A stretch of DNA of 64,000 nt from Clostridia bacterium (GTDB lineage: Bacteria; Bacillota; Clostridia; Oscillospirales; Acutalibacteraceae), in NCBI GenBank assembly GCA_017549565.1, contig JAFYUI010000004.1:1-64000 (forward strand). The letters are read 5' to 3'. How positions within the stretch are numbered: position 1 is the stretch's first letter; the number at the start of each line of letters is the position of its first letter. Below are positions 22,377-53,990 of the stretch, piece after piece. Under the pieces are notes generated by a model that did no database searches, was not told the origin of the DNA, and saw only the letters and a program-made list of their open reading frames with translations. The position numbers and the translations under genes are program-made.

Positions 22377-22838
22377 CTAACCCTGTTTTTTCAAGTCCTT
22401 TTTAAATAAATTTTTTGTTTTATTTAATAATATAGTGCAATATTTTGCCCATTTTTTAATTTTTTCAAAAAGCCATATCAAAATGCGGTTTAAAAAGTCA
22501 ACAATTTTTGCTGAAATTTCGTTTAAAAACTTAAAAACCGCAAACAAAATTTTTACAAAAAAACGCGAAACGGTAAAATAACAAATAAGAAAACCGACTG
22601 CAATTCCAATAAGAATATATCCCCTGATTTCACCATTTGACAGCGACATTAAAAGTAAAAATGTCAAAATTGAAATTATTAAAAAATAAATTAAATCTTC
22701 AAAAAATACTGAAAAAGCGGTGGATTTATATAACTTTCTAAACGCTCTGAAAAGGTCATAAAAAAGGCAATAGCCCACACCAAATAAAACCGAATATAAA
22801 AACGAAACCGCTTGAAAAGAACTGTCAATTTCCCACAT
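22377..22838 (-). CDS. yabQ: Spore cortex biosynthesis protein YabQ
   Basis: 153 residues. Four predicted membrane segments in the first ~110 residues (about 9-28, 41-62, 70-90, 92-108), followed by a basic amphipathic tail. The FGVGYCLFYDLFRAFRKLYK segment is characteristic. Family knowledge: YabQ is a mother-cell membrane protein needed for the spore cortex. It lies 2 bp after yabP. Confidence 0.88.
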   Translation of the reverse strand: MWEIDSSFQAVSFLYSVLFGVGYCLFYDLFRAFRKLYKSTAFSVFFEDLIYFLIISILTFLLLMSLSNGEIRGYILIGIAVGFLICYFTVSRFFVKILFAVFKFLNEISAKIVDFLNRILIWLFEKIKKWAKYCTILLNKTKNLFKKDLKKQG

Positions 22839-22840
22839 AA

Positions 22841-23110
22841 TTATTTAAAAATTTTACCAAAAAACGAGCCACCGCTTTTTTGCGCTGTGTAAACAATAGC
22901 GTGAAATTTACCCTCTATCGAAATATCGCCCGTTTTAGTATCAAAATTTATTATATGCAACCTTTCACCCTTAAGGGTTAGAAGCCCCAAAGCAGTATCC
23001 AGCACAACCGTTTCATCATCAAAGGAAATACACTCTCTAATGCCTGAAGCGGTGAAGCTTTTGCGGTTTTCTAAAATAATATTGCTGTTTTGCTTAATAA
23101 TTTCTTCCAA
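22841..23110 (-). CDS. yabP: Sporulation protein YabP
   Basis: 89 residues. Matches the YabP/YqfC family: NRKSFTASGIRECISFDDETVVLDTALGLLTLKGERLHI, then DTKTGDISIEGKFHAIVY. Start is TTG at 23108-23110, with AAGGGGTG 7 nt upstream. That ribosome site is buried in the 3' arm of a hairpin (23117-23146). Forms a unit with yabQ; the pair is conserved in spore formers and implies this organism sporulates. Confidence 0.9.
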   Translation of the reverse strand: MEEIIKQNSNIILENRKSFTASGIRECISFDDETVVLDTALGLLTLKGERLHIINFDTKTGDISIEGKFHAIVYTAQKSGGSFFGKIFK

Positions 23111-23116
23111 AATTAA

Positions 23117-23146
23117 ACACCCCTTAAATATATATTTAAAGGGTGT
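23117..23146 (-). terminator. Hairpin after rqcP whose 3' arm holds the yabP ribosome site
   Basis: On the minus strand ACACCCTTTAAATA pairs with TATTTAAGGGGTGT (about 13-14 bp with one G-T pair), followed by TTTAATTTT. AAGGGGTG in the right arm is the yabP Shine-Dalgarno. Confidence 0.7.
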
Positions 23147-23151
23147 AAATG

Positions 23152-23394
23152 TTATTCAATAATTTTATACATTAAAGTTGCATCTTCTTTATGGATACTT
23201 TCCGCAAGGGTTAAAACCGTAACCCTAACAGTTCGTGTGCCGAAAGAAATTTCAATTTCATCATTTACTTTAACATCATAAGATGCACGGGCAACCTTGC
23301 CGTTTACAAGCACCCTGCCCGCGTCGCACGCTTCATTTGCAATGGTGCGGCGTTTAATAATTCGGGAAACTTTTAAATATTTATCTAATCTCAC
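23152..23394 (-). CDS. rqcP: S4-domain ribosome quality control protein RqcP (YabO)
   Basis: 80 residues, a single S4 domain: MRLDKYLKVSRIIKRRTIANEACDAGRVLVNGKVARASYDVKVND. Family knowledge: RqcP/YabO stabilises peptidyl-tRNA on the 50S subunit during RqcH alanine tailing. Starts at GTG (23392-23394) with AGAGG 6 nt upstream. It lies between hup and yabP, as in Bacillus. Confidence 0.92.
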   Translation of the reverse strand: MRLDKYLKVSRIIKRRTIANEACDAGRVLVNGKVARASYDVKVNDEIEISFGTRTVRVTVLTLAESIHKEDATLMYKIIE

Positions 23395-31834: not shown

Positions 31835-32611
31835 TTAACCGATTTTAAGTTTTAACCGCAGCTTATCGCTTATCATTGCAATAAATTCAGAATTTGTGGG
31901 TTTTCCGCGTTGGCTTTGAATAGTATAACCAAAGTAAGAATTTAAAACATCAATGTCGCCTCTGTCCCACGCAACCTCAATAGCATGACGGATGGCTCTT
32001 TCCACTCTTGATGAAGTTGTGGCATGAAGCTTTGCAATTGTGGGATATAATAATTTAGTCACCGAATTTATAATTTCGCTGTCTTTAACCGCTAAAATTA
32101 TGGATTCACGCAAATAGTGATATCCCTTAATATGTGCAGGTACACCAATTTGGTGCATTATTTCGGTAACCAAAATTTCAAGCTCGTTATCACCAATGGC
32201 ATTGTTATTTACCAAAATGGGTGCTTTTTCATTTTTCCAACCCGAAAGCTTTATAATTCTTTCTGCCATTACATTAACATCAAACGGCTTTAAAAAATAA
32301 TAACAAGCACCCGCATTTAAAATTTCTTTTTCAATTCTTGGGTTTGCATAACCCGATGTAACCATAACAAGCGGTGCATCCTTTTTATCCATTTTGCCAA
32401 TAATATCCAAAACGCCCAAGGCATCAAGATTTGGCATAAAAATTTCGGTAAGTAAAACATCCGGCTTTTCTTTTTTAACAGCATCAATTACCTTTAAGCC
32501 GTCCTTGGCAATAATAATTACCTCCATACCATAGTTTTTAAGTACCTTTTCACAATTTTTTGAAAAATCATTGATATCATCCGCAATTACAATTTTTAAC
32601 TTTTTTTCCAT
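31835..32611 (-). CDS. spo0A: Sporulation master regulator Spo0A, with Glu at the phospho-acceptor position
   Basis: 258 residues. Receiver domain at 1-125: acidic pair D11-D12, MVTSG switch residue region, and YYFLKPFD with the conserved Lys. At the phospho-acceptor (Asp56 in B. subtilis) the sequence is [10 protein letters not shown]: residue 56 is Glu (codon GAA, 32444-32446). The usual MPxxDG is also MPNLDA. The DNA-binding effector domain (about 145-258) is well conserved: [51 protein letters not shown]. The family activates sporulation when phosphorylated by the phosphorelay; the Glu may alter or bypass that. No spoIVB lies upstream; tcdA is divergent. Confidence 0.95.
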
Positions 32612-32673: not shown

Positions 32674-32751
32674 GCAATTTGCCAAAACTTCCCATCAAAA
32701 AATGTAAATTTACATAAAAAGTGTAAATTCGCCATTTTTCAACAAAGCTTA

Positions 32752-51634: not shown

Positions 51635-53875
51635 CTAATCAACTGCGCTCTCGTCACGGAAGTAAACCGTGACGATAGTACCAACCTCGACCGATGTATT
51701 TGCCGCAATGCTTTGGTTATATGCTTTAAGACCTGAAATTGCGGTATTGCCCGAAAATTCAACATTAAGTCCCAAACTTGCCGCCAAGGTATTAACCTCA
51801 GTTGCGGTATAACCCGTAAAGTTTGGCACTGTTACCTTACTGCCTGCGGTTTCGTCGGTATAAAGAATTACCACACCGCCTGTTGCAACCTTGCTACCTG
51901 CTTCGGGTAACTGGCGAACAATCTTTTCGCCACTGCCAATAATCTTATAATCTAACTTTGAATTAGTAATTTTTGCTTTTGCATCAGTTACAGTAAAGTT
52001 TGTAACATCCGGCACATCGACCGCAAGCTTTTTGATTTCTTCTTCGGTATAGCTCGGCTCATAGCCAAGGTAAGGAAGCACATCACCCATAATTTTTGAA
52101 TTTACAGGTGCCGAAATAACACCGCCGTAGTAGTTAGAGCCCTTTGGTTCGTCAAGCATTACCAAAACGGCAATTTCGGGGTTATCAATGGGGGCAACCG
52201 TTATACAAGAACCGATATAAAGGTAGGTATCGCCTGTTGCCTGAATTTTTGAAACCTTTTGCGAGGTACCTGTTTTTGTACCAATTCTATAACCGGGCAC
52301 CAAAGAGTTTTTGGCACCGTTTTTAGAAACAAACTCCATAAGCTCACGCATTGTGGCGGAGGTTGTTTCGGAAATTACCTGTCGCTTATAGGTTGTGGTT
52401 GTGGTTTTAACCACCTTGCCGGCATCATTAACAGTTTTAGCAACCAAATGCGGTTGAACAAGATATCCCCCGTTTACTGCAGCTGAAACTGCCGACATCA
52501 TTTGAATAGGGGTTACATTAAAGGTTTGACCGAATGAGGATGATGCCAATTCTACAACGCCCATATTTTCCTCTTTGTGATAGGTCGAGCGTGATTCACC
52601 CGGTAAATCTATACCTGTTTTTTCGGAAAAGCCAAATGCCTTAAAATATTTAGAAAATGTTGAAATGCCCGCAAGCTGACCAATGGTAATAAATGCAGGG
52701 TTGCAGGAATTTGAAATAGCTTGCTGTAAATTTTGTGTACCGTGACCACCATGCTTCCAACAGCCGTATCTTTGTCCCGCAACACTTGTGTGACCGTTAC
52801 AGAAAAAGCTGTTATTCTTATTTATCAAATTTTCTTCAATAGCAATAGATGCAGTTACAACTTTAAAAACCGAGCCCGGCTCGTAAGAGTCGGAAATTGC
52901 TTTATTACGCCATTGGCGGTTTAAAAGCTCGTTTTTAAGCTTTGATTTTGCCTCTTCGTTGGCTTCGGCATCAACCTTATCTTGGTCAACCTTTGACAAG
53001 GTAAAGGGGTCGTTTGGGTTAAAGTCGCCCTTAACCGCCATTGCCAAAATTGCACCTGTCTTTACATTCATAACCACCGCTGCGCCACGCTCGGCAACCT
53101 TGTTTTGTTCAATAGCGGTTTCAAGATATTTTTCACAAGTGTATTGAATATAAGAATCAAGTGTTAAAACAAGCGAATTACCTTTTATTGCCTCTTCAAC
53201 CTTTTCATAGGTAAAGGGCATATCGGTACCAAGGGCATTTTTTGCCGCAACAACTCTGCCCGCAATACCTGTGAGCTCGTTATCGTAATAGCTTTCAAGT
53301 CCTGAAAGGCCTTGCTCGTCAGAGCCAACAAAACCAAGCACAACCGATGCTAATGTATCATTTGGATAATATCTTTTTGTGGTTTCATCAAGGCCGATGT
53401 ATTTGGTTATTTCCAAATCCTTATTGTCACTTATAAATTTGCGGATTTCATCGGCAGTTGATTTTTCAATTTTCTTTTTAACAATTACATAATAAGAATT
53501 TTTATCGGTATTTTTATAAACCGTGTCATAATCGACATCTAAAATTTCCGAAAGACCCTTTGCAATGGTAACACGAACAGTTTCACGCTTTGCATTGTCT
53601 TTAATCTTTTTAATGCCATTAGGGGTTATATAAACAGTCCAAGCGGTTGAGCTTGTTGCCAAAACCTGCATATTACGGTCAAAAATATCACCGCGGGGAG
53701 CTGTCACAAGACTGTCATAAAGTTGTTGTTCTGATGCCTTGGTTTGATATTCTTCACCCTTTAAAATCATAATGTTTACAAGACTTGCGCCCGAAACACC
53801 CGAAAGCGCAACAATAAGAATAAGCATAATTACAAAAATGCGTCTTGCCATCATTTTACCCGGTTTTTTAGCCAT
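51635..53875 (-). CDS. spoVD: Class B penicillin-binding protein with PASTA domains (SpoVD type)
   Basis: 746 residues. Short cytoplasmic tail, one membrane helix (12-34), PBP dimer domain (about 55-220), transpeptidase (about 260-600) with SVFK at 335-338, SCN at 390-392 and KTGTS near 545, then two PASTA domains (about 620-745; VDVPDVTNFTVTDAKAKI and VTVPNFTGYTATEVNTLAASLG). Cross-links septal or spore-cortex peptidoglycan. The PASTA pair matches SpoVD/PBP2B; the specific role is inferred. Confidence 0.93.
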   Translation of the reverse strand: MAKKPGKMMARRIFVIMLILIVALSGVSGASLVNIMILKGEEYQTKASEQQLYDSLVTAPRGDIFDRNMQVLATSSTAWTVYITPNGIKKIKDNAKRETVRVTIAKGLSEILDVDYDTVYKNTDKNSYYVIVKKKIEKSTADEIRKFISDNKDLEITKYIGLDETTKRYYPNDTLASVVLGFVGSDEQGLSGLESYYDNELTGIAGRVVAAKNALGTDMPFTYEKVEEAIKGNSLVLTLDSYIQYTCEKYLETAIEQNKVAERGAAVVMNVKTGAILAMAVKGDFNPNDPFTLSKVDQDKVDAEANEEAKSKLKNELLNRQWRNKAISDSYEPGSVFKVVTASIAIEENLINKNNSFFCNGHTSVAGQRYGCWKHGGHGTQNLQQAISNSCNPAFITIGQLAGISTFSKYFKAFGFSEKTGIDLPGESRSTYHKEENMGVVELASSSFGQTFNVTPIQMMSAVSAAVNGGYLVQPHLVAKTVNDAGKVVKTTTTTYKRQVISETTSATMRELMEFVSKNGAKNSLVPGYRIGTKTGTSQKVSKIQATGDTYLYIGSCITVAPIDNPEIAVLVMLDEPKGSNYYGGVISAPVNSKIMGDVLPYLGYEPSYTEEEIKKLAVDVPDVTNFTVTDAKAKITNSKLDYKIIGSGEKIVRQLPEAGSKVATGGVVILYTDETAGSKVTVPNFTGYTATEVNTLAASLGLNVEFSGNTAISGLKAYNQSIAANTSVEVGTIVTVYFRDESAVD

Positions 53876-53990
53876 TTTGCGCCTTCCCTTTCTTTAAAAA
53901 ACTTAAACTTATAATACCCGAATACGAGAGCCGACATTTTTTCAGCTCTCGTACCCAATAATTAGTATATTAACTTTTATATATTATTTA

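Follow-up and report, generated by a model that had tools for sequence, protein, structure and literature searches.

Glutamate at the phosphoacceptor position of a clostridial Spo0A and repeated change of this position across its family

Phosphorylation of Spo0A is treated as the general trigger of endospore formation. In the available parts of four papers, activation of the regulator is described as phosphorylation (PMC6136694, PMC11210211, PMC11115286, PMC3533761), and in the accessible text of another the presence of spo0A serves to single out putative spore formers from metagenome genomes (PMC11536998). Our literature search, outside whose scope most subscription papers lay, found no paper on a natural Spo0A without the acceptor Asp56.

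Receivers in which the acceptor aspartate is replaced are found in RitR and ChxR, which are regulators of other processes. The Spo0A described here shares the receiver fold with both, and in ChxR the replacing residue is also Glu (PMC4395418, available part); unlike them, it is a sporulation regulator and has near relatives with Asp56. Truncated Spo0A carried by phages has already been described (PMC10294663, available part) and resembles our protein in being a Spo0A effector that would work without phosphate control, but the phage form is reported there to lack a receiver, whereas our protein has a complete, conserved one. With the Spo0A of Bacillus and Clostridium the protein has in common the domain order, the match to TIGR02875, the effector, the receiver fold and most residues of the phosphorylation site. 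It differs from them in its Glu56, and in that neither Spo0E nor an unpaired HisKA kinase was found in its genome.

The spo0A gene of the window and its phosphorylation pocket

The window analysed is a stretch of 64,000 nucleotides (contig JAFYUI010000004.1, positions 1 to 64,000) from a Clostridia bacterium whose genome, G000 below, measures 1.49 Mb and is 96% complete. The features of its spo0A gene are as follows.

31835..32611, minus strand: spo0A, 258 aa (open reading frame with TIGR02875 and domain matches)
31844..32179, minus strand: Spo0A_C DNA-binding effector domain, about residues 145-256
32255..32593, minus strand: receiver domain PF00072 (profile match; predicted (beta-alpha)5 fold)
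32288..32290, minus strand: Lys108 of FLKPFD, kept
32354..32356, minus strand: switch Ser86, kept
32423..32425, minus strand: D63, invariant in 150/150 family sequences
32444..32446, minus strand: codon 56, GAA, encoding Glu in place of the phosphoacceptor (codon reading and alignment)
32576..32581, minus strand: acidic pair D11-D12, kept

The gene product contains both the receiver and the Spo0A_C domain, with PF00072 and PF08769 above their cut-offs, and scored 293 bits with TIGR02875 (spore_0_A), an equivalog model with a cut-off of 200, in agreement with its being a Spo0A orthologue. The effector domain is well conserved, as an earlier note made from the sequence had stated (150 bits with PF08769; 61% to 1fc3). 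When the whole genome was searched with PF08769, the window gene was accompanied by one 42.7-bit match and no further full-length Spo0A. A hidden canonical copy, which that note had named as a refuting finding, is rejected on this search: the window gene is the single full-length Spo0A found in a genome that is 96% complete. The 42.7-bit match is a 100-aa open reading frame without a receiver, located in phage-like surroundings on contig C31 (L002:1429-1728), and we take the frames beside it to encode single-strand-binding and recombination proteins.

Alignment to solved Spo0A receivers, ungapped across the stretch, placed Glu56 on the acceptor Asp of LDIIMPHLDG. Asp56, a mark of phosphorylation control and not of descent, is thus replaced by Glu through the codon GAA, and the protein has the composition of an aspartate-less receiver, keeping the receiver fold but not the acceptor Asp. 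The rest of the site (D11, D12, S86 and Lys108 of FLKPFD) is intact. All this agrees with the earlier reading of the sequence, and no other Asp occupies the acceptor position. D63 can be discarded as a replacement acceptor, because it occupies the same place in proteins with Asp56. A base-calling or read error is likewise ruled out, since 7 of 61 members of the genus carry Glu at this codon, every time as GAA. The note had further pointed to an Ala in place of the Gly of MPxxDG. That substitution is real, but it is a family trait (Ala in 96 and Gly in 25 of 150 sequences) and no part of the change at residue 56.

The structure predicted from 42 sequences reached a mean pLDDT of 85.8, with receiver blocks at or above 85, and its strand 52-56 ends on Glu56. 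It matched Spo0A effector and receiver structures, including the phosphorylated receiver 1qmp. The receiver of the Glu clade is therefore predicted to fold normally, a prediction that is silent as to active versus inactive state.

In seven pairs of the Glu clade, dN/dS was 0.07-0.13 for the receiver and 0.007-0.055 for the effector, which shows that both domains are under purifying selection. Ten usable Asp pairs gave receiver values of 0.01-0.085, an eleventh pair being identical. Constraint on the Glu-clade receiver is slightly below that of the Asp pairs, and some relaxation is possible.

Residue 56 in the genus and the family

Spo0A was sought in 70 genomes of the genus and read at full length from 61, the nine with partial or no matches being left uncounted. 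Residue 56 was Asp in 54 and Glu in seven (G000, G263, G215, G207, G241, G242 and G264), and three extra Spo0A copies in the genus (L121-L123) all had Asp. The D11, D12, S86, K108 pocket is kept throughout the Glu clade apart from a Glu at residue 11 in L037. Tree reconstruction from Spo0A placed G264 (L038) apart from a group that unites the remaining six Glu species with four Asp sisters (support 99/90). On this tree, two changes at residue 56 are needed within the genus, and a single origin of Glu56 is not supported. A kinase tree of 15 genomes did not decide between one and two origins, and Glu may have been gained twice, or once with one return to Asp.

A wider sample comprised 200 genomes of the family, a large group of bacteria chiefly from gut and rumen that is probably, as we take it, GTDB Acutalibacteraceae; almost all are drafts or were assembled from metagenomes, while G054, G173 and G103 are in one or two contigs. 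The best Spo0A match was read for 150 of them. Most proteins (139) keep Asp56, and the other 11 carry Glu (6), Asn (3) or Trp (2). The rest of the site varied as well: Asp was found at residue 11 in 77 sequences and at residue 12 in 73, and Lys at residue 108 in 116. A complete site, defined as D/E at 11 and 12, D56, S/T86 and K108, was present in 70 of the 150. G38, D63, G101 and P109 were invariant in all 150, residue 56 being less conserved than these. In Clostridium sporosphaeroides DSM 1294, for example, Spo0A has Asp56 but Asn11 and Ile108. Strain HV4-5-B5C is a bearer of Asn56.

A set of 80 named relatives, which overlaps the family sample (judged by length, L220 and L314 represent one contig), had Asp in 70, Glu in 7, Asn in 2 and Gly in 1 (10/80 non-Asp). 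The genome with Gly56, G273, was ruled out as a case of Asp56 loss, because a second copy, L456, carries Asp56.

The best tree of 222 Spo0A rows, computed with column 56 masked, required 12 changes between Asp and non-Asp; masking all five site columns gave 11, and well-supported branches alone gave nine independent contrasts, the direction of change in this outgroup-free tree resting on Asp as the majority state and the known state elsewhere. Residue 56 and other residues of the phosphorylation site have thus been altered many times in the wider family. All five Asn56 and Trp56 proteins of the family sample lack Lys108, as do three of the six with Glu56, the other three keeping it. Proteins without Asp56 also tended to be without Lys108 in the raw data (Fisher p 0.001), but the significance vanished when only independent pairs were used, and co-loss was dropped.

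Several unusual copies were met in these searches. G273 (L250, L456) holds four Spo0A_C proteins, including the Gly56 and Asp56 copies. Four second Spo0A_C copies were read: that of G273 with Asp56, a degenerate one in G269 (L457), and two without a receiver (L459 and the C31 copy of G000). G268 also gave a weak second match. Several genomes of the family encode Spo0A_C proteins of about 114-135 aa that stand alone and have no receiver (L459, L129 and the second matches of G095 and G054). In Eubacterium coprostanoligenes ATCC 51222 (L267), the spo0A frame is broken at aligned residue 64, and the open frame bearing the effector measures 192 aa.

Phosphate input, sporulation genes and the control of Spo0A

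Two HisKA kinases are encoded in G000, both immediately next to a regulator, and on contig C3 a further kinase-like gene also adjoins a regulator; including Spo0A, the genome has four receivers. No unpaired HisKA kinase was found in this genome, where five other HATPase-domain matches were taken, from their length, as gyrase/MutL-like and anti-sigma proteins. Control of this Spo0A by kinases is unlikely, in line with a suggestion of the earlier note. HisKA kinases of the remaining Glu genomes were paired, by sequence or by neighbouring coordinates, with few exceptions: in G263 a kinase fragment where a contig ends, and in G215 and G207 a 615-aa kinase with its regulator at the margin of the stretch (partly visible in G215, not visible in G207). 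The HisKA kinases of the Asp56 relatives G208, G214, G210 and G256 were all paired too. Hybrid kinases, with kinase and receiver in one protein, were found in G240, G066 and G237, and in two of these a receiver protein of 575-613 aa adjoins a hybrid kinase. A model search for Spo0E, positive with the B. subtilis control, found none in 16 genomes.

Absence of an unpaired kinase and of Spo0E does not track Glu56, since several Asp56 relatives share it. Kinase loss as the cause of Glu56 was accordingly set aside for want of a one-to-one link; loss of the dedicated phosphate input appears to be an event separate from the change at residue 56, perhaps an earlier one. On contig C4 of G000 (L126:3807-8001), a response regulator, a kinase and what we read as an HtrA-like protease lie directly before spoIIGA and sigE; in G263 and G208, regulator, kinase and a sigE-like match keep this order on a single contig.

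Three genes of the sporulation type lie in the window.

22380..22844, minus strand: yabQ-type spore cortex gene
22844..23155, minus strand: yabP-type sporulation gene
51638..53893, minus strand: spoVD/ftsI-type penicillin-binding protein

Two of them scored below their NCBIfam cut-offs (YabP, 74.6 versus 75.4 bits; SpoVD, 598 versus 688). A sigma-factor search of G000 gave nine matched stretches, among which sigA, sigE, sigF, sigG, sigK and others were named from length and neighbours and not by model call; sigF sits behind spoIIAB- and spoIIAA-like frames, and sigE behind spoIIGA. All 16 genus genomes had SpoIVA above the cut-off and SpoIIE-type matches, none of the latter above the cut-off of its own model, with SpoIIE split across two contigs in G264 alone. 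Sporulation genes are thus present in G000 (SpoIIE, YabP and SpoVD below their cut-offs), and the view of the earlier note that sporulation is retained holds at the level of genes. To our knowledge, neither a sporulation phenotype nor biochemistry has been reported for any Glu56 species.

Each of the 11 family-sample genomes without Asp56 had a sigma-F/G-type match at E < 1e-80, although the cut-off of the sigF model itself was reached by none of the 200; that of G076 is listed with an internal stop. Among the 150 genomes read, such matches were missing from G093 (98% complete) and G109 (69%), both of which have Asp56, the Spo0A of G093 being L351. Loss of Asp56 does not accompany loss of sporulation genes. 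In the family sample, the presence of Spo0A was associated with that of sigma F/G (Fisher p 1e-7). Among genomes at least 90% complete, sigma F/G was missing in 8 of 15 without a full Spo0A versus 3 of 143 with one; the other 7 of those 15 well-assembled genomes still carry it. Spo0A therefore tends to accompany sporulation genes in this family, and the tie is not strict.

We conclude that the window gene encodes a working Spo0A, probably uncoupled from Asp phosphorylation, and we favour, with moderate confidence, the view that it is the genuine Spo0A of G000, regulating sporulation without aspartate phosphorylation at residue 56. Dedicated phosphate input would have disappeared in this lineage, where neither an unpaired kinase nor Spo0E was found, and this loss would have left the acceptor residue free to change. 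The receiver may now serve to form dimers or to bind a partner and have some basal activity, to which a charged Glu56-Lys108-Ser86 pocket could contribute, and the decision to sporulate would be set by the amount of Spo0A or by a bound partner, plus later checkpoints. More tentatively, the sporulation switch may have been freed repeatedly from two-component phosphorylation in this family, Spo0A acting by dose or partner and Asp56 being, in many species, a residue on its way out. Repeated change of the site with sporulation genes kept provides natural experiments on the role of a receiver without phosphate, and the family also bears on the way in which bacteria that lack evident sporulation kinases commit themselves to sporulation.

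The earlier note had proposed that Glu may mimic the active state and make Spo0A constitutively active. Glu56 would then act as a specific mimic together with D11, D12, S86 and K108, locking Spo0A as an active dimer that is always on. The pocket kept in the Glu clade (Glu at 11 in L037) is consistent with this, and the available part of a review gives Glu as the most frequent substitute in aspartate-less receivers, at 26%, and cites it as activating NtrC (PMC4395418). Against it, Asn (three proteins) and Trp (two) occupy the position elsewhere in the family, all without Lys108, which half of the Glu proteins also lack; a mimic is thus unnecessary in general. Moreover, Asp-to-Glu is a single-base change, and its recurrence may be mutational. 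The same review states, in the part available, that Asp-to-Glu alone did not suffice in Spo0A (PMC4395418). Because of the Asn and Trp lineages and this statement, we rank the mimic second and consider it unlikely as a full account, although some constitutive activity could come from Glu56 where the pocket is intact.

Less likely still, Spo0A and sporulation could be decaying in a small-genome lineage, with Glu56 as an early mark. The genome size of 1.49 Mb and the slightly weaker constraint on Glu-pair receivers point that way. Sigma factors, SpoIIE and SpoIVA are nevertheless present in the Glu clade and receiver dN/dS is still near 0.1; the two genomes read that have no sigma F/G match, G093 and G109, keep Asp56, and sigma F/G is missing mainly where a full Spo0A is missing too (8/15 versus 3/143).

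Phosphorylation of another residue, such as Thr/Ser55 beside Glu56, or of Glu56 itself, appears very improbable. Phosphorylation of a neighbouring residue is known for a CheY mutant, and residue 55 is T/S in five of the seven Glu species, being A or C in the four nearest Asp species; against this, residue 55 is Ala in the two remaining Glu species, G207 and G241, and every HisKA kinase of G000 has its own regulator. That Spo0A here regulates something instead of sporulation is hardly credible: Spo0A elsewhere also controls other stationary-phase genes and sigma F/G is retained in 7 of the 15 genomes that lack a full Spo0A, but direct support is nil, and both the association of Spo0A with sigma F/G and the strongly conserved effector (61% to 1fc3) speak against it.

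Candidate regulatory elements at spo0A and other sporulation genes

Upstream of spo0A, two sequences were compared with TGNCGAA, which we take to be the 0A box consensus.

32728..32734, minus strand: TGGCGAA, candidate 0A box (match to TGNCGAA)
32738..32744, minus strand: TGTTGAA, candidate with one mismatch to the 0A box (aligned position)

At the aligned position of the second, G215, G241 and G229 have TGTCGAA. The spo0A locus contains three matches to TGNCGAA versus 2.2 expected, which is chance level, and none was found in a stretch of 310 bases around the spoIIAA start of G000. The motif GACAAA/TTTGTC was present at spo0A in 11 of 11 genomes examined, at spoIIE in 10 of 10 and at spoIIA in 8 of 9, above the level in resampled sequence. 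It was set aside as 0A-box evidence, since at spoIIE and beside spo0A it lies within a TTGACA resembling a sigma-A -35 sequence; the conserved GACAAA may be a -35 element. Between spoIIAA and the gene that precedes it, a GGACAAG...CTTGTCC hairpin followed by a T-rich stretch was observed in both Glu and Asp species (L177 and relatives).
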